In this document: positions 16,906 to 47,422 of the stretch, in pieces
Position numbering within the stretch: the stretch's first letter is position 1
Layout of the letters: the number at the start of each line of letters is the position of its first letter
Assembly (NCBI GenBank): GCA_020853095.1
Contig: JADYZN010000032.1
Span: 1-64,000 of the forward strand
Origin: Phycisphaerales bacterium
GTDB taxonomy: Bacteria; Planctomycetota; Phycisphaerae; Tepidisphaerales; Tepidisphaeraceae
Reading direction: 5' to 3'
DNA: 64,000 bases
The notes under the pieces: generated by a model
The model's database searches: none
Told to the model about the DNA's origin: nothing
The model's input: the letters and a program-made list of their open reading frames with translations, nothing else
Made by a program: the position numbers and the translations under genes

Positions 16906-17018
16906 GATCGGTGTGTTTTGCACCGCCGGTGTAAAATGCGCTGGTTCGTTGTAAGCCATTTCTGCGCATGAAGTTAGAGCCGAATTGATCAGTTGGATAG
17001 GTGTAAAATGCACCGATC
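16906..17018. repeat. Spaced inverted repeat with a third half-site
   Basis: The left arm GATCGGTGTGTTTTGCACC (16906-16924) matches the reverse complement of the right arm GGTGTAAAATGCACCGATC (17000-17018) at 16 of 19 positions. The 12-mer GGTGTAAAATGC of the right arm recurs exactly at 16928-16939. Three related sites upstream of the array suggest a cooperative or looping transcription factor, or remnants of a small mobile element. Confidence 0.55.
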
Positions 17019-17125
17019 CGGGGGTGCGATGCCGGCGCATTTCGGGTCGGCCTGAAATTTTGTAAATCATTTATAAATAACAACTTATAAAAATATGACG
17101 GGTCCCCTGCTGGGTTTGGTACGCG

Positions 17126-17626
17126 ATGTGTTTTAAGCCTGTCGTGAACGCGGTTGTAACAAAATCAAAGATCGTGTGGCTGGGAATGAGAGATCGTCCG
17201 GCCAGGGTTTTAAGCATCGGGCAGACCGGCGTGCCGCAAGGCCTGGGCGGAGGAAGGATCGACTGGTCCTTTGCCAAGGAATCCGCCGAGGTGTTGGCCC
17301 AGTTGCGTCGGCGTGATTTCGAACATGTTCTGGCCGGGCGAACGATCCAGGACCAGCCGATTTGGCCTGTGATCCGGCGGGTGAAGGCGATTCGGCAAAG
17401 GCAGAAATGGTCGTTGATCGCTCCGATGCTCAGCCGGGCCGAGGAGATCATGGCCAGGTCGCTGGGGGTGGTGCGGATATTCGATTCAATGCCCGATTCG
17501 GAAGCGATTTTGGAACTGGTGGCCGGCTCGATCGTGGTGGACCGGCTGCTGATGGAGGAAGCGATGAACCCGAATGAACCTCATCGCCAGGCCAGGCCGG
17601 GTCTGTTGCAACCTCAGGCCGTATGA
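17126..17626 (+). CDS. Degenerate receiver-like protein
   Basis: The 166-residue product has the strand-helix rhythm of a response-regulator receiver (ARVLSIGQTG, SAEVLAQLRRRDFEHVLAG, WSLIAPMLSRAEEIMARSLGVVRIFDSMPDSEAILELV) but lacks the acidic pair, the phospho-acceptor Asp and the conserved lysine. It may be a phosphorylation-independent regulator; it has no DNA-binding domain. The start ATG 17126 lacks an obvious ribosome binding site, so the exact N-terminus is uncertain. Its stop lies 11 nt before the first cassette hairpin, the same hairpin that ends each PEP-CTERM gene, which ties this gene to the array. Confidence 0.6.
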   Translation: MCFKPVVNAVVTKSKIVWLGMRDRPARVLSIGQTGVPQGLGGGRIDWSFAKESAEVLAQLRRRDFEHVLAGRTIQDQPIWPVIRRVKAIRQRQKWSLIAPMLSRAEEIMARSLGVVRIFDSMPDSEAILELVAGSIVVDRLLMEEAMNPNEPHRQARPGLLQPQAV

Positions 17627-17637
17627 ACCCTCTTTTG

Positions 17638-17777
17638 CCCGCCGGTTCGGGAAATCCGGATCGGCGGGATTTGGATCGGGCGTGTTGCCCGGTTCGTGAA
17701 TGAAAACGAGGCCGCGAAGTATCGCGGCAGGGAGATGAGGCGGCCCTTAATTTTCGCCTTAAATAGGAGATTGGGTC
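17638..17777 (+). promoter_or_regulatory. Cassette spacer A: three-hairpin module before PEP-CTERM gene 1
   Basis: Hairpin 1 (17638-17650 with 17656-17668) is 13 bp with a GAAAT loop. Hairpin 2 is GCCGCGA/TCGCGGC (17711-17717, 17722-17728). Hairpin 3 is TGAGGCG/CGCCTTA (17736-17742, 17755-17761). The ribosome binding site AGGAGA follows at 17765 and the ATG at 17778. The block GTGAATGAAAACGAGGCCGCG is shared by copies A to D, and copy E differs slightly. Confidence 0.85.
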
Positions 17778-18686
17778 ATGTTCAGCAGCAAGTCAGTGAT
17801 CGCGTGTGCCGCTGCTGCGGCGTTGGGTTTTGGTGGGGTGGCTACCCAGGCGGCGCAGGTCAATGTCGGAGCGTTCGGCGATTACGGATGGAAAGCCGAC
17901 GACGTGCGAAACACGTCGGGCATGGACTTGGTTGGCATCAACAACACCAATGCGGGAAAACCTGGCCAGACACCCACTGCCGCCGACGATCTGGCCATCG
18001 CGACGCAGATTCAGTTTGTCGCCGGCCCGTCCGGCTCGACCTATGGCGGGGCGGTTTCGATCGACGGGACAAGCTCAAACAGTGGAAAGTCGAATTACAG
18101 CGTAATCGACACGGCCAGCGGCTTTGGTACCGGCGCCAGCCTGCTGACCACCTTCAATGCAACATATGAGTGGTACGGCCAACCCAACCCCACGACACGG
18201 ACCTTGGCCTTCAAGCTGGGTATTCAATCGACATCATGGGGAACGGGTGCGGGTCAGTCGCAAGAGGGCTTCACCGCCACACGTTCCGGCGAATCGGCTT
18301 GGGATCTGGTGCTGGTTCACGTCCCGGCCACCTCTGACAACGCATGGAGTACGGTCAGCGTCGATCATGACAGCGGCACATGGGCCCTTTATCGCCAGGC
18401 GGGCAACACGTTCTTCCCCGTACCCTCGGCGACGCCGCAAACGCTGGATCAATGGAACACCGACTCCACCTTTGGACCGCTGCTTTTCGGCAGCGGAGCC
18501 AAAGTCACGAGCATCCAGTTTGGACTTGGGTCATCCCAGAAAAACTCCATCAGCTATGTGGATTATCTCCAGACCAACCTGCTCAACGGCGGGGACGTGA
18601 TCAATTACGTCCCCGAACCCAGCATCCTGGGCGTGGCGGGATTGGCGGCATCGGCGCTGCTGATGCGTCGGCGTCGGCGGGCGTAA
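17778..18686 (+). CDS. PEP-CTERM surface protein 1
   Basis: This is a 302-residue exported protein. The N-terminus MFSSKSVIACAAAAALGF is a Sec signal peptide shared with the other array members. The body is rich in Gly, Ser, Thr and Asn, has no cysteine or catalytic motif I recognise, and looks like an all-beta extracellular domain (for example SAWDLVLVHVPATSDNAW, TWALYRQAGN). It ends with the PEP-CTERM signal NYVPEPSILGVAGLAASALL followed by MRRRRRA, which exosortase cleaves at the cell envelope. No exosortase gene is in the window. The preceding spacer carries three hairpins and the ribosome binding site AGGAGA 7 nt before the start. Confidence 0.88.
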   Translation: MFSSKSVIACAAAAALGFGGVATQAAQVNVGAFGDYGWKADDVRNTSGMDLVGINNTNAGKPGQTPTAADDLAIATQIQFVAGPSGSTYGGAVSIDGTSSNSGKSNYSVIDTASGFGTGASLLTTFNATYEWYGQPNPTTRTLAFKLGIQSTSWGTGAGQSQEGFTATRSGESAWDLVLVHVPATSDNAWSTVSVDHDSGTWALYRQAGNTFFPVPSATPQTLDQWNTDSTFGPLLFGSGAKVTSIQFGLGSSQKNSISYVDYLQTNLLNGGDVINYVPEPSILGVAGLAASALLMRRRRRA

Positions 18687-18703
18687 GAGTGTCGAACCTT
18701 CTT

Positions 18704-18844
18704 TCCGCCGGTTCGGGAAATCCGGATCGGCGGGATTTGGATCGGGCGTGTGGCCCGGTTCGTGAATGAAAACGAGGCCGCGAAGTTTTCGCGGTTAAGG
18801 GAGATGAGGCGGCCCTTTTAATCGCCTCAAAAGGGAGCATTGTC
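18704..18844 (+). promoter_or_regulatory. Cassette spacer B: three-hairpin module before the mini PEP-CTERM gene
   Basis: Hairpin 1 is at 18705-18716 and 18722-18733. Hairpin 2 is CCGCGAA/TTCGCGG. Hairpin 3 is TGAGGCG/CGCCTCA, a perfect 7-bp stem where spacer A has a G-U pair. AAGGGAG follows before ATG 18845. Confidence 0.85.
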
Positions 18845-19123
18845 ATGTTGGGCGGAAAATCAATCCTGGCGGGTGCGGCGGCGATGATTTTTACGGTCGG
18901 TGCCCAGGCGATGGCGGCCGGTGGAATCGACCAGAGGCGGGGCGGTTCTCATGAGACCACCCTCATCAATGGCACATCCGGCCAAGCCGACGCCGCAACA
19001 TCCGGCCGATTTGCAAGTCGGGCACGTCACGTCCCCGAACCCAGCTACCTGGGCCTGGCGGGCATGGCGGCATCGGTGCTGCTGATGCGTCGACGGCGCG
19101 GGCGGAGTCTCTTTGGACATTAG
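18845..19123 (+). CDS. Miniature PEP-CTERM protein
   Basis: The product is only 92 residues: a signal peptide (MLGGKSILAGAAAMIFTVGAQAMA, written here in two overlapping parts as MLGGKSILAGAAAMIF and MIFTVGAQAMA), about 35 polar residues, and a C-terminal signal ARHVPEPSYLGLAGMAASVL followed by MRRRRGRS. It therefore has sorting signals but no folded domain. It keeps the same spacer and ribosome binding site as its neighbours. It may be a remnant of a deletion inside a cassette, or a real short surface peptide. The reading frame is intact, with no frameshift or early stop. Confidence 0.75.
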   Translation: MLGGKSILAGAAAMIFTVGAQAMAAGGIDQRRGGSHETTLINGTSGQADAATSGRFASRARHVPEPSYLGLAGMAASVLLMRRRRGRSLFGH

Positions 19124-19132
19124 CCTTTTGAC

Positions 19133-19272
19133 CCCGCCGGTTCGGGAAATCCGGGTCGGCGGGATTTGGATCGGGCGTGTTGCCAGGTCCGTGAATGAAA
19201 ACGAGGCCGCGAGTTTTCGCGGTTAGGGAGATGAGGCGGCCCTTAATTTTCGCCTCGAATAGGAGATGGGTC
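19133..19272 (+). promoter_or_regulatory. Cassette spacer C: three-hairpin module before PEP-CTERM gene 3
   Basis: Hairpin 1 is at 19134-19145 and 19151-19162 with one T-A pair changed to T-G. Hairpin 2 is CCGCGA/TCGCGG. Hairpin 3 is TGAGGCG/CGCCTCG. AGGAGA precedes ATG 19273. In this copy an in-frame ATG at 19195 opens into the gene, but the same frame is closed in copies A and B, so it is not used as the start. Confidence 0.85.
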
Positions 19273-20175
19273 ATGCTCAGCAGGAAGTCAGTTATCGCGT
19301 GTGCCGCTGCGGCGGCGGTGGGTTTGGGGCAGTTGGTGCAGGGGGCGGCGTTGAATGGGGCGGACGACTATGGCACCGATTCACATGGATACTATTTCGC
19401 GATCTCAGGCGGACAATTCCCCACCGGGTCCACACCCAACGGGGATAATGCATCGGGTGGGACGTACCGATTCCTGGTGGATGATGCGGTCGGTTGGGGG
19501 CGAGATGCATCTGAATCGGGTGTGTGGCAGAAGGATGACTGGTATTCGGATAACGCCGGCATCGGTCTGACGCTGCGGAACGGAACATCAATTGTTTACG
19601 ACAACAATGGTCTGGAAGCCGATGCGGTGACGCCGGCCAGTGCCGTTTATTACGACTCAGTTGCAGGCAACTATCCGACCGGCGGTCATGGTGCGGTGAC
19701 GGCGTATTCGATGTCGAACAACTACGACTGGATTTACGCAGGTTATTTCAAGATTGTAGCCGAAACAACCGTGACCTCGCTGACGGGATATTTCGCTTAC
19801 AACACCAGCCCCAGCGATGGGTTGACCGCTGGGTTTGATCCAAGTGACCCGGATGTGCGTTTTCGCATGAACATCTGGTCCAACGTCAGCGGCGATCTGC
19901 TGCCGACCGATACCGATTCATTCGATGGCGATGTGTTCACCAGTGATCTCTCGACCGGCACGTTCAGTTGGTCGGATACGGGTTACAACCGTGTGGGGTC
20001 CAGTTCACAGCAGGACATCTATCGGATGACCTACACGTTGAATTCGCCGATCGTTCTTCAACCGGGCGAATACTGGTTCAGTCATGATGCGGTGTTGGTC
20101 CCCGAACCGGGCGCGTTGACCTTTCTGGGCATCGGCGCATCGGCGTTGCTGATGCGTCGGCGCCGGCGGGCATAA
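19273..20175 (+). CDS. PEP-CTERM surface protein 3
   Basis: This is a 300-residue exported protein with the shared signal peptide MLSRKSVIACAAAAAVGLG. The body has many Asp, Gly, Ser and Tyr residues and repeated beta-strand-like stretches (YDWIYAGYFKIVAETTVTSL, TGYFAYNTSP), typical of an extracellular jelly-roll-like domain; the segment around PIVLQPGEYWFSHDAVLVPE is strand-rich up to the sorting signal. The end is VPEPGALTFLGIGASALL then MRRRRRA. The start is the ATG after AGGAGA; longer in-frame starts lie in the structured leader. Function is unknown beyond surface or matrix association. Confidence 0.88.
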   Translation: MLSRKSVIACAAAAAVGLGQLVQGAALNGADDYGTDSHGYYFAISGGQFPTGSTPNGDNASGGTYRFLVDDAVGWGRDASESGVWQKDDWYSDNAGIGLTLRNGTSIVYDNNGLEADAVTPASAVYYDSVAGNYPTGGHGAVTAYSMSNNYDWIYAGYFKIVAETTVTSLTGYFAYNTSPSDGLTAGFDPSDPDVRFRMNIWSNVSGDLLPTDTDSFDGDVFTSDLSTGTFSWSDTGYNRVGSSSQQDIYRMTYTLNSPIVLQPGEYWFSHDAVLVPEPGALTFLGIGASALLMRRRRRA

Positions 20176-20192
20176 GGCAGTCGAACCTTCTT

Positions 20193-20332
20193 TCCGCCGA
20201 TTCGGGAAATCCGGGTCGGCGGGATTTGGATCGGGCGTGTGGCTCGGTCCGTGAATGAAAACGAGGCCGCGAGGTTTCGCGGTTAGGGAATTGAGGCGAC
20301 CCCTATCTTTCGCCTTAATAAGGAGAGCGATC
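20193..20332 (+). promoter_or_regulatory. Cassette spacer D: three-hairpin module before PEP-CTERM gene 4
   Basis: Hairpin 1 is at 20194-20205 and 20211-20222, with an A-T pair where other copies have G-T. Hairpin 2 is CCGCGA/TCGCGG. Hairpin 3 is TTGAGGCG/CGCCTTAA, 8 bp, with a changed loop. AGGAG follows before ATG 20333. Confidence 0.85.
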
Positions 20333-21073
20333 ATGCTCAATCGGAAGTCAGTTATCGTGTGTGCCGCCGCGGCGGCCTTGGGATTCGCTACTGTAGGTAC
20401 GGCGATGGCCGACATCGTGGTGTACGACACCTTGTCAGGTCAGGATACCTTCATCGACCAACAGTATGCGAATAACTACTACTACATTGGTACCGAGATT
20501 GCCCCGAACCAGACCGGACAATTGACAACAATCCAGATACCGTTTGCGGTGACGTACTACAACGCCAGCAATGAAAATCGGGCGACCAGCTTTGATTACA
20601 CGCCCAATGTTCGCCTGGACCTGTATCCCAGCATTGCCGACGCAGTCGCAAATACGAATCTGCTTGGAACCGCCAACGCCAGCAGCACATTCCACAATGA
20701 TGGAATCATTGGTCCTGGTGACACCGTACGGCACTACAACATCGAAGACCGGCAGGTGCTGACATTTGATTACACATCACAGAACGTCACGCTGCCCTCC
20801 TCCTTTGTTTTCGCCTATCACGATGATGCGACGGATAACATTGCCGGTACGGCCGGGTTTTCAGTGTATGGAAAGAGCGGATTGACCGGCCCGACCTACT
20901 TTAACACATACCCCAATGCCGTCGGATCAGACTCGACGAGTGGTCCATACGGGGGTACTTACGATGGCTACTCGATCTCAGCGGCAGTCAGCATTGTCCC
21001 CGAACCGGCAACTTTGTCGGTACTGGGCATCGGCGCGGCGGCGTTGCTGATGCGTCGGCGTCGGCGGGCATAA
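20333..21073 (+). CDS. PEP-CTERM surface protein 4
   Basis: This 246-residue exported protein has signal peptide MLNRKSVIVCAAAAALGFAT, near-identical to its neighbours. The body starts IVVYDTLSGQDTFIDQQY and contains TTIQIPFAVTYYNAS and VRLDLYPSIADAVANTNLLG, resembling planctomycete PEP-CTERM proteins with a jelly-roll-like fold. It ends IVPEPATLSVLGIGAAALL then MRRRRRA. The start follows AGGAGAGCGATC. The middle has no visible similarity to the other four array proteins, although the first 20 and last 25 residues are almost the same. Confidence 0.88.
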   Translation: MLNRKSVIVCAAAAALGFATVGTAMADIVVYDTLSGQDTFIDQQYANNYYYIGTEIAPNQTGQLTTIQIPFAVTYYNASNENRATSFDYTPNVRLDLYPSIADAVANTNLLGTANASSTFHNDGIIGPGDTVRHYNIEDRQVLTFDYTSQNVTLPSSFVFAYHDDATDNIAGTAGFSVYGKSGLTGPTYFNTYPNAVGSDSTSGPYGGTYDGYSISAAVSIVPEPATLSVLGIGAAALLMRRRRRA

Positions 21074-21090
21074 GGCAGTCGAACCTTCTT

Positions 21091-21232
21091 TCCGCCGGTT
21101 CGGGAAGACCGGATCGGCGGGATTTGGATCGGGACGGTGTTGTCCCGGCCATGAATGAAACGAGGCCGCGAGGTTTTCGCGGCAGGGGAAAAGAGGCGGC
21201 CCTTAATTTTCGCCTCGTAAAGGAAATGGGTC
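21091..21232 (+). promoter_or_regulatory. Cassette spacer E: three-hairpin module before PEP-CTERM gene 5
   Basis: Hairpin 1 is at 21092-21103 and 21109-21120 with a GAAGA loop. Hairpin 2 is GCCGCGA/TCGCGGC. Hairpin 3 is GAGGCG/CGCCTC. AAAGGAAA precedes ATG 21233. Confidence 0.85.
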
Positions 21233-21952
21233 ATGTTCAGCAGGAAGACAGCTATCGCGTGTGCCTCCGCGGCGGCCTTATCCTTGACCGGTATTTCGGC
21301 CACGCAGGCGGCGGTTGCATGGAGTGGCCAGAACTGGGTTGAAAACTTAGGAGATGCCGCTGTGAATGTCGACGGCAATCTGGAGTTGACAACCTCGCAC
21401 GAAACCTATCCGGGTAGCGGAGACTACGTTGGCCAAACTTATTATACTACCGACAACGCATTTCGAAGTTCATCAACACCTTATGTAAAGGTCACGTTTA
21501 CGGATTCAGGAAGCGGCGTCGGTCCGTACCTGGCATTCGACAAAGAAACTGGATTCAATAATGGGTGGGCCGAAATCGGGGCCAATCCCCTCAATGATGT
21601 AACTGAGGACCATTATTCAATTTACTGGGACAACTTTGGCGGTGCATATCATCCGGTTGATCTTGGGGCGCGCACAGCGGGTGATCATACCGTACAAATC
21701 GGTCGGCGTTCGGATGGCACGCTGGATTTCTGGTTTGATGGTTCGCTGAAGTACAGTTCAGACTTCAACGTTATCAATCCGAGTTACATGGAATATGTGT
21801 ACCTCGCCGCGGCGGGAACATCCGCCTCGGATGTCGCAACGTTCAAGAACTTTGAATCGGGAACGAATTATGTTGTCCCCGAACCCTCCACCATCACCCT
21901 GCTGGGCATCGGCGCGGCGGCGCTGCTGATGCGTCGGCGTCGGCGGGCATAA
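21233..21952 (+). CDS. PEP-CTERM surface protein 5
   Basis: This 239-residue exported protein begins MFSRKTAIACASAAALSLTG. The body resembles a concanavalin-like or laminin-G-like beta sandwich: AVNVDGNLELTTSHETYPGS, YVKVTFTDSGSG, TVQIGRRSDGTLDFWFDGSL and FKNFESG are the kind of strands seen in LamG/DUF1080-type carbohydrate-binding domains. That is a guess from style, not a match. The end is YVVPEPSTITLLGIGAAALL then MRRRRRA. It is the last member of the array and is followed by the terminal hairpin with a T-run. Confidence 0.87.
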   Translation: MFSRKTAIACASAAALSLTGISATQAAVAWSGQNWVENLGDAAVNVDGNLELTTSHETYPGSGDYVGQTYYTTDNAFRSSSTPYVKVTFTDSGSGVGPYLAFDKETGFNNGWAEIGANPLNDVTEDHYSIYWDNFGGAYHPVDLGARTAGDHTVQIGRRSDGTLDFWFDGSLKYSSDFNVINPSYMEYVYLAAAGTSASDVATFKNFESGTNYVVPEPSTITLLGIGAAALLMRRRRRA

Positions 21953-21969
21953 GACTGCTGAACCCTGTT

Positions 21970-22006
21970 CCCGTCGGTTCGGGACAACCGGATCGGCGGG
22001 ATTTTT
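21970..22006 (+). terminator. Terminal copy F of cassette hairpin 1, with T-run
   Basis: The stem 21971-21982 pairs with 21988-21999 and is followed by GATTTTT. It is the same hairpin as in spacers A to E, but here it has five T residues, as expected for an intrinsic terminator at the end of the array. It also separates the array from the convergent gene that ends at 22006. Confidence 0.8.
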
Positions 22007-22902
22007 CATGCCATGGCGAACAGCGTGCGGTCGCCGTTGCGGGAGGGGGATTTTGATTTTTTACGGCGGGTTTTGGCGGGGCGGGGGCGGCCGGGGAAGG
22101 GGTAGGGGGTGTCGTCGGCGAAGAGCCGGCCCTGGCGGGTTGGGGGGGCGGTGCGGATGCGCAAACGGGCGAAGGCGTCGGCGATCGTGGGATAATAGAG
22201 CTTGATGGCCCGCAACAGCCCCGGATCGTGGATGCGGAGCAGGGACCGGTTGACGTATCCATGGGTGCGTTCAAAGGCGCGCAGATAGCGTGTCACCTGT
22301 TTGATCGACCAGATTCGGCGCTGGCGGATGGTGGCCGGGTCGATGTCGGCATCGCGCAAGGCATCATCATAAGACCCGAAATGGCGAACGGCGGCGGTGT
22401 ACAGGCCGGGCAATTCGCGCTGAATCGCCAGGGCGTTGACCGGCAGTTTGCGTTCGTGGCGTTGACGAAGAACCGCTGCCACTTCGTCGCTGGTCCAGCG
22501 GCGGTATCGGGAGACCCGGCGGGGGTTTAATCCGGCCGCCTCGACCGCCTCATTCCAACTGCCGAACAGGTGCGGTTTGACGGCGGCGCTGGCCGCCCGG
22601 CCCACCTCATCTCGCCGGAGAATCACCGATCTCCAGTTCAAATCCTCCCCCTCGCGGCGCAATTTGCGGATCACCGCGACGATCTTCTGTTCCGACCACT
22701 TGGGTTTTCGGCGGATCTCCTGGTAATCAAACCCCGCCTGGGCGACGGCCTTGCGATAAGAGCCGAAATAGTACGCCGACGCGGAAATAATGGATTGATG
22801 GGTGCGGGCCAGGGCGTTGTATGACAGGTCGTACCCCTGGCGGTGCAACTGTCGAATGGCTTTCAAAATATCGGTGCTGCTCCACTTGCGATGGGTCTTC
22901 AT
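22006..22902 (-). CDS. Protein with tandem homing-endonuclease-associated (HNH_repeat-like) repeats
   Basis: The 298-residue basic protein is built from about five repeats of roughly 50 residues, each beginning near a Trp (KWSSTDILKAIRQLHRQG, KWSEQKIVAVIRKLRREGED, RWTSDEVAAVLRQRHERK, IWSIKQVTRYLRAFERTHG) and ending FGSYRKAVAQAGFD, FGSWNEAVEAAGLN or FGSYDDALRDADID. This is the pattern of the repeat found beside HNH homing nucleases, thought to bind DNA. No HNH, GIY-YIG or other nuclease motif is present. The tail is Arg/Lys-rich (RPRPAKTRRKKSKSPSRNG). The start at 22902 (MKTHRKWSS) is chosen over an upstream extension with unrelated sequence. It faces the PEP-CTERM array. Confidence 0.72.
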   Translation of the reverse strand: MKTHRKWSSTDILKAIRQLHRQGYDLSYNALARTHQSIISASAYYFGSYRKAVAQAGFDYQEIRRKPKWSEQKIVAVIRKLRREGEDLNWRSVILRRDEVGRAASAAVKPHLFGSWNEAVEAAGLNPRRVSRYRRWTSDEVAAVLRQRHERKLPVNALAIQRELPGLYTAAVRHFGSYDDALRDADIDPATIRQRRIWSIKQVTRYLRAFERTHGYVNRSLLRIHDPGLLRAIKLYYPTIADAFARLRIRTAPPTRQGRLFADDTPYPFPGRPRPAKTRRKKSKSPSRNGDRTLFAMA

Positions 22903-23427
22903 CGAGCGATCTCTGGGCAATTTCCGGCCAAATCCATTGTAAACCGGGGGCTGGGGGTTGGCGCGAAATGGTTCTTGTAAAAGGCCCCTGTCTGATTGTT
23001 GCGAAAGATATAGCACAAGAGATGAATGATTGCCAAACGTCGGCGATGAAAATAACCATCGGCATGGATTGAGCTTGTGACCATGAGGTGGCTTTCCGGC
23101 GACAAATCCCGCAAAGCCGTGAAGAGACCGGCCAGCTTACACAAGTTTCGAAAGATGTGAAAATTGAACGGGCCGGGAAGCATCCTGTGAAGAAATTCAC
23201 GAATGAGGTTTCAGTCAAAAACGGGGCGGCGTATCGGTGGTTACAGGGGATCGTGAGGGATCAATGAAAATGCGATGAGGAGCGAAATACAAGAGGGGTC
23301 GCGGGGATCGTACGAAGTGGGAGAGCCCTCCGCAAGGGGGTTGGGGGTTATTTTCTAATGTGACAAAAGTATCTTTTTATCCTGAAAAGTCAATAGATTT
23401 TCCAGTATTTGCGTCGGGTGGTGGGAG
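22903..23427. other. 525-nt region without a convincing gene
   Basis: Short open frames exist on both strands (for example 23183-22899 minus and a plus-strand frame ending near 23265) but none has a clear ribosome binding site or a recognisable protein family. GC is lower than in the flanking genes, especially after 23350 (TATCTTTTTATCCTGAAAAG), which probably includes the promoter of the large respiratory operon. A CCCTC/GGGGG hairpin at about 23326-23341 is weak. Confidence 0.5.
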
Positions 23428-46207: not shown

Positions 46208-47422
46208 TCATTTGACGGTGAGGGCGGACACTTCGGGCCGGTTGTCGTAGTAATCGGGGATTTGTTCGATCGACGGGATGGCCTGGAACGTATTGTTGTG
46301 GCTGGATTCGCGGGCGGCCAGGCACATGGCGACACTGCGCAGGCCATCCTTGAGGTTGGGATGGGCCGGGGCGTTGCCGCGGGTGACATCGATGAAATTT
46401 TGCAGCAGTTTGAAGTCGCCGCCGCCGTGTCCCTCTTTGGAGTTCAGCAGGTATTCCTCGGATTTATTGGTGAAGTGCTCGGTGAGGCGAACCTTGAAAG
46501 TAAACCAGTCGAATTCGACGCTGCCGGCATAGCCGGTGATGATGGCGCCGCGACGGCCGGCGGAACGGCGGGAGATGAAATTCTGGGTGTAGCTGACGTG
46601 CAGGTCGTTTTCATAGCGGATGATGGCCGACCCGGCGTCTTCGTTGTGGATGTCTTTGCTGTAGGCGCACCAGTGGTCGCCATATCCCATGCCGCCATCG
46701 TCGCCGCGTTTTTTGATGTTTTGAGGGCTTTCCATGCAGGTATCGGTGATGTCGCACTTGGAACACTTCAGATCGTGGGGCTTGTCGCCGCCGTAGATTT
46801 TTTGCGTGATCATGGCGGCGATCTGAGTGGGCCGGCTGTCCGCCAGGAGGGTCAGGTAATCGAAGTCGTGGGTGGCTTTTTGCAGCCACAATCCCCCATC
46901 CTGGTCGTAGTTGCGGTACCAGGTTCCGAAATAGACGCCGCCATAAGGGACGTTGTTGATCGCCTGAATCTGATTCACCGTGCCGATCCGGCCGGAGCGG
47001 ACCAGTTCGTGGACTTTTTGAAACAGTGGAGTCATCCGCAGGGGGAAGGAGATCGTTACGCGATCTTCGATCCCGCGAAAGGCGCGGGCGAGATCGGTCA
47101 ACTGGCGGTAACTGATCGCCACGGGTTTTTCAAGATAAATCGGCAAATTGACGGCCTTGACCTGCATGGCCAGCGGGGTGTGCAGGTGACAGCGCGTGCC
47201 GATCATGATGGCGTCGAACCGGCTCGAATCCTGGAGCATCTGATCGGCCGAGGCGTAAAATCGGGTGGATTCGGAGTTGATTTTGAGGGTTTTTAGCTTT
47301 GCCTTGACGCTTTCCTGATCCGGATCGGCGACGGCGGCGAGGCGGACTTCGGGGTTCATCTGCTGCAACAACTCAAACAGGTCGCCAACTCGCAAACCCA
47401 GGCCGATAACCGCAACACGCAT
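46208..47422 (-). CDS. Gfo/Idh/MocA-family oxidoreductase
   Basis: This 404-residue NAD(P)-dependent dehydrogenase shows MRVAVIGLGLRVGDLFELL at the Rossmann start, AIMIGTRCHLHTPLAMQ, the signature YLEKPVAISYRQL with the catalytic Lys, and GGLWLQKATHDFDYLTLL with His and Asp. A cluster of cysteines (CSKCDITDTCMES) sits in the second half, which is unusual for the family and may bind a metal. Substrate is probably a sugar or inositol derivative. It is divergent from the GntR regulator of the nag-like unit, sharing a 93-nt region. Confidence 0.9.
   Translation of the reverse strand: MRVAVIGLGLRVGDLFELLQQMNPEVRLAAVADPDQESVKAKLKTLKINSESTRFYASADQMLQDSSRFDAIMIGTRCHLHTPLAMQVKAVNLPIYLEKPVAISYRQLTDLARAFRGIEDRVTISFPLRMTPLFQKVHELVRSGRIGTVNQIQAINNVPYGGVYFGTWYRNYDQDGGLWLQKATHDFDYLTLLADSRPTQIAAMITQKIYGGDKPHDLKCSKCDITDTCMESPQNIKKRGDDGGMGYGDHWCAYSKDIHNEDAGSAIIRYENDLHVSYTQNFISRRSAGRRGAIITGYAGSVEFDWFTFKVRLTEHFTNKSEEYLLNSKEGHGGGDFKLLQNFIDVTRGNAPAHPNLKDGLRSVAMCLAARESSHNNTFQAIPSIEQIPDYYDNRPEVSALTVK

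Follow-up and report, generated by a model that had tools for sequence, protein, structure and literature searches.

Conserved non-coding DNA has been described upstream of many PEP-CTERM genes. According to Haft et al. (2006, PMC1569441), a sigma-54 site accompanied by an activator site precedes proteobacterial PEP-CTERM genes, and many other PEP-CTERM genes have different non-coding upstream regions. In the literature searched, whose coverage was partial, we found no described leader RNA for PEP-CTERM genes, in agreement with a preliminary description of the locus considered here, and the control of PEP-CTERM expression in Phycisphaerae was apparently undescribed. The window analysed, the whole stretch of 64,000 nucleotides, corresponds to positions 1 to 64,000 of contig JADYZN010000032.1 (assembly GCA_020853095.1) of a Phycisphaerales bacterium, and gave no match at the gathering score to any Rfam 15 family. 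It harbours, at 17638-22006, an array of five PEP-CTERM genes separated by repeated spacers rich in hairpins, of which the two nearest to the ribosome binding site, H3 and H4, look like a true 5' leader whose structure has been kept by selection. These spacers resemble the block of Haft et al. in being conserved non-coding DNA in front of PEP-CTERM genes, but that block is a sigma-54 promoter site with an activator site, whereas a scan for the sigma-54-type GG-N10-GC element returned none in the spacers.

Spacer copies and their hairpins

The five PEP-CTERM genes follow one another on the forward strand between positions 17778 and 21952, in a genome that encodes more than 70 such genes, and each product carries an N-terminal signal peptide and a C-terminal PEP-CTERM tail. 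They are gene A (17778-18686, 302 residues), gene B (18845-19123, only 92 residues), gene C (19273-20175, 300 residues), gene D (20333-21073, 246 residues) and gene E (21233-21952, 239 residues). Two of the five tails passed the Pfam cut-off, and the other three fell slightly under it yet matched the motif. As had been proposed, each gene is preceded by a near-identical spacer of about 140 nt (A, 17638-17777; B, 18704-18844; C, 19133-19272; D, 20193-20332; E, 21091-21232). Mutual identities range from 77 to 94%, and every spacer folds better than its dinucleotide-preserving shuffles (z from -2.0 to -4.4).

The three hairpins originally described in each spacer do exist, but the total is four, H1 (13 bp), H2 (9 bp), H3 (7 bp) and H4 (8 bp). 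Hairpins 1, 2 and 3 of the preliminary description correspond to H1, H3 and H4, and H2 had been missed. All copies are on the forward strand. From A to E, H1 occupies positions 17638-17668, 18704-18734, 19133-19163, 20193-20223 and 21091-21121; copy A, terminator-like, lies 3' of the gene at 17126-17626 and is followed by GATTTGG, without a run of five T. H2 is found at 17673-17695 (GUGUU loop), 18739-18761 (GUGUG loop), 19168-19190 (a single G-A mismatch), 20228-20250 (GUGUG loop) and 21126-21150 (rebuilt, with one added base per arm). H3 is located at 17711-17728, 18777-18795, 19206-19223, 20266-20283 and 21165-21183, and H4, directly 5' of the ribosome binding site, at 17736-17761, 18805-18829, 19232-19257, 20292-20317 and 21192-21217.

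By themselves, the five copies do not show selection on RNA structure, although covariation among them had been the basis on which it was initially proposed. No pair changed on both sides (0/41 and 0/37; RNAalifold, pair counts), and the base exchanges that had been listed are real but all one-sided (G-C/G-U, A-U/G-U). Pairing was preserved in 9 of 15 stem changes versus 7.5 expected (P = 0.12) under a null that keeps the observed change types, and a looser null gave P = 0.035. Stems were nevertheless less variable than unpaired positions (15 changes/74 versus 33/73; Fisher P = 0.0015). One H2 pair is broken in copy C, and the rebuilt H2 of copy E (CGGGAC/GUCCCG) is the sole visibly compensatory change within the array, which the aligner does not score as such.

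The array in two species

An orthologous array with three PEP-CTERM genes (a, b and c) was found in the genome of a sister species, the metagenome-assembled genome Phycisphaerales bacterium SJ194 (JADLBV01; G001). Since gene A is orthologous to sister gene b (72% identity) and the genes upstream of the two arrays are also related, both arrays occupy the same locus. H3 and H4 are present 5' of all eight genes, and H2 in all five spacers of the window and in one of the three sister spacers. The H3 arms, GCCGCGA/TCGCGGC in the window, read GCCGCAT/ATGCGGC in sister a, GCCGCA/TGCGGC in sister b and CCATC/GATGG in sister c, so that 4 of the 7 pairs show compensatory changes between species; the covariation score was reached by 1 of 500 shuffles. 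H4 (GAGGCG...TCGCCT) is identical in the eight copies, its stem being nearly invariant and showing little covariation, whereas agreement at the four-fold sites of the A-b ortholog pair is only 54%. These sequence comparisons support selection on RNA structure for H3 and make it plausible for H4, and to that extent the original claim stands, though on evidence from the sister species and not from the five copies on which it had been built.

Leaders and gene bodies have had different histories. Within the genome, leaders A-E share 77-91% identity, versus 45-55% with sister leaders a and b; leader A is 83-91% identical to leaders B-E versus 48% to the leader of its own ortholog. After trimming of the ends, the bodies of genes A-E proved mutually unrelated, the sole related pair being A and sister b. 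As leaders within a genome are closer than orthologous leaders and the bodies they precede are unrelated, the leaders evolve in concert around unrelated bodies. Gene B is almost bodiless and looks internally deleted or rebuilt by recombination, its last 30 residues matching the tail of sister gene a at 87% identity.

The spacer had been regarded as one leader unit, but H1 belongs to the preceding gene. It is a GC-rich hairpin placed directly after the stop codon of every gene in both species, and six copies of it flank the five genes. The sixth copy (21969-22006, forward strand; hairpin 21969-22001) follows the last gene without H2-H4, is trailed by TTTTT and was called by the terminator scan, constituting the intrinsic terminator of the array. 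In the sister array, H1 is found 3' of all three PEP-CTERM genes, the last one with TTTT, and is absent 5' of the first gene, where H3 and H4 are present. Comparable GC-rich hairpins occur downstream of stop codons elsewhere in the genome. The sixth copy with its U-tract, the presence and absence pattern in the sister array and the similar hairpins past other stop codons identify H1 as the terminator hairpin at the 3' end of the preceding gene, outside the leader. It resembles intrinsic (rho-independent) terminators in its 13-bp GC-rich stem right past the stop codon and in the U-tract of the terminal copy of both arrays. The internal copies differ from them in having just three T past the stem (GATTTGG) and, because this U-tract is short, we infer that termination there is probably partial and some transcriptional read-through likely.

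Several observations concern the surroundings of the two arrays. A gene on the reverse strand (22006-23016), coding for a protein with homing-endonuclease-associated (HNH) repeats, faces the end of the array, where its stop codon coincides with the terminator; no such gene was observed at the matching position of the sister array. Positions 16914-17020, ahead of the gene at 17126, contain repeated GGTGTAAAATGC / GTGTTTTGCACC elements, partly inverted and operator-like in appearance. Directly upstream of the sister array lies a sigma-54 activator gene (L027, 8908-9957, reverse strand), reminiscent of PrsR-type PEP-CTERM control, whose best relative in the window's genome is on a different contig.

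Possible roles of the leader

With moderate confidence, we favour the view that this is a duplicated and homogenised array in which H3 and H4 serve as a 5' untranslated region (5'-UTR) stabiliser or as an insulator of the ribosome site, in combination with upstream terminator hairpins. A unit made up of a PEP-CTERM tail, the H1 terminator, the H2-H4 5' leader and a signal-peptide start would have been duplicated in tandem, the resulting units enclosing gene bodies without detectable mutual relation, and recombination within each genome would then have homogenised the spacers. H1 has its full U-tract only at the array end, and its internal copies would let some transcription through and mark or protect 3' ends. 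As for H3 and H4, we infer that their likeliest role would be to protect each message at its 5' end and to hold the strong upstream hairpins away from the ribosome site. Stabilising 5'-UTR hairpins occur on abundant envelope-protein messages, such as that of E. coli ompA. By analogy, the leader would share with ompA-type stabilisers the strong 5'-UTR hairpins of a surface-protein gene and a ribosome site left downstream; it differs from them in having no sequence relation to them and in being present in multiple copies within one array.

Several results weigh against this interpretation. No promoter was located in the array and a scan did not find a sigma-70-like site. Several copies have an H4 whose predicted pairing is weak (probability 0.05-1.0), and the openness of the ribosome site did not clearly exceed that of the other PEP-CTERM genes (median 0.47 versus 0.41, P = 0.07). 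Besides, only two species carry the leader, so that covariation draws on no more than two or three independent lineages and the support for selection on structure is real but thin.

The same leader could be imagined as a cis-regulatory switch, in which H3 and H4 would sense a ligand, a protein or temperature and gate the ribosome site, thereby coordinating the surface proteins of the array; the preliminary description had envisaged a shared RNA-binding factor or RNA processing as a possible route to such coordination. The location of the leader immediately ahead of the ribosome site of each of the eight genes would suit a switch, as would the alternative folds predicted to compete with H4 in copies A, B and E. 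One form of the switch would be an H-type pseudoknot, with the GGG located 5' of H4 pairing with a CCC in the H4 loop, and both triplets are conserved in both species. However, none of the copies, taken singly, gave a significant pseudoknot helix (P 0.06-0.44), and the double changes that made its pair counts look favourable were an artefact of the aligner, which had shifted AGGGA by one base (a 1-nt gap). Moreover, most copies leave the ribosome site unsequestered, the competing folds do not predict consistent sequestration, a conserved aptamer-like core is lacking and the model searches yielded no homologs outside the genus. We therefore regard a switch as unlikely, control of the leader by a ligand or a protein being possible but unsupported. 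A stabiliser or insulator is preferred to it because the ribosome site, somewhat open, is not clearly different from that of other PEP-CTERM genes, folds competing with H4 are seen in some copies and the GGG/CCC helix does not reach significance copy by copy.

Other explanations place the emphasis on DNA. The spacers might act mainly as homology for shuffling, their identical ends allowing recombination to duplicate, exchange or delete gene bodies, with the hairpins being incidental. Unrelated bodies do sit between conserved ends, the short gene B bears the tail of sister gene a, and leaders are homogenised within the genome, a pattern with parallels in its other tandem arrays. But H3 pairing has been kept by compensation between species and variation is lower in stems than at unpaired positions, neither of which would be expected if DNA identity alone mattered, and we consider this explanation improbable, slightly more so than the switch. 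Least credible of all, and in our opinion very improbable, is a recent neutral duplication in which the hairpins would be GC-rich remnants and the similarity nothing else than common descent. The lack of double-sided changes among the five copies and the non-significant pair-keeping would fit such an origin, but it does not account for the compensatory changes of H3 in the sister species or for a conservation of H4 well above that of four-fold sites.

Distribution of this and other PEP-CTERM leaders

DNA searches revealed no full spacer copies elsewhere in the genome, all of them being contained in this one array, and none of the other PEP-CTERM genes of the genome was found to have the leader (28 loci searched with the model, most upstream regions compared directly). 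The H3/H4 model (R2) recovered the five copies of the window and the three of the sister genome, and the remaining matches in 397 genomes of the class and 392 of the phylum were at chance level. Training loci aside, the R2 matches outside the genus (20-28 bits) were not PEP-CTERM leaders in the 30 class-level and the first 4 phylum-level loci inspected. No riboswitch-type conserved core was found across distant genomes, R2 being limited to the window's genome and its sister. Among the genomes searched, the H3/H4 leader is thus confined to this genus. The preliminary description had treated a lack of copies elsewhere in the genome, together with a lack of significant covariation, as evidence that would count against a selected RNA: copies elsewhere are indeed missing and the models reach just one sister species, but covariation does exist between species in H3.

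The spacers share with REP-type (repetitive extragenic palindromic) sequences the repetition of intergenic hairpins and differ from them in that REP palindromes are dispersed, while all spacer copies are in a single array. Three other tandem PEP-CTERM pairs of the genome have repeated spacers of their own, different in sequence, which makes repeated spacers a trait of tandem PEP-CTERM arrays here and not of this leader. The tandem pairs L120 (contig C61) and L122 (contig C3) have their own duplicated spacers, with terminator-like hairpins between the genes. Two further candidates were discarded. Leader E resembles one from a different array (CATGAATTGAAAC..GGTCCGCGAGG) with a best score not above that of the best shuffle, and the segment of that other array belongs to a dispersed palindrome; the GGGTGTTCC hairpin, considered as the mark of a genome-wide regulon, showed a mere mild enrichment (40 versus 24).

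A second leader was noticed in another array of the genome, where a hairpin with a GUGUU loop lies just 5' of the ribosome site of PEP-CTERM genes. Its two copies (L119, 1743-1813 and 2719-2789) correspond to positions 47242-47312 and 48218-48288 of contig C54 of the same genome, and further loci are L168, L169, L201, L186, L202, L188 and L189. Close copies exist in a second genus of the family as well as in the sister genome. Its model also gave weaker matches in other families of the class, individually near chance level, of which five outside the training set stop precisely at a PEP-CTERM start codon. Compensatory changes affect 4 of the 8 pairs of its stem, and none of 500 shuffles equalled this, for an alignment that had been fitted to the model. 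The GUGUU-loop leader is possibly spread over three families in all, two beyond its own. Within it (L119, 1676-1734) lies a long palindrome (AGGGTCCGCC..GGCGGACCCT) that turns up again in the sister genome, at about 15 places, and in two other genera, and which is a dispersed REP-like element or one of the miniature inverted-repeat transposable element (MITE) type.

It could be speculated, as a proposition we hold doubtful, that sets of exosortase-sorted PEP-CTERM proteins are controlled in Phycisphaerae by several 5' leader RNAs, analogous but unrelated to one another, such as H3/H4 and the GUGUU-loop leader. If true, the PEP-CTERM surface repertoire would be under post-transcriptional control, for which the limited literature checked offers no precedent. 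A leader that merely stabilises messages would be an ordinary case; one acting as a switch would be, within that same literature, the first for PEP-CTERM genes. The array itself provides a concrete case for testing how arrays of surface proteins become expressed and diversify.

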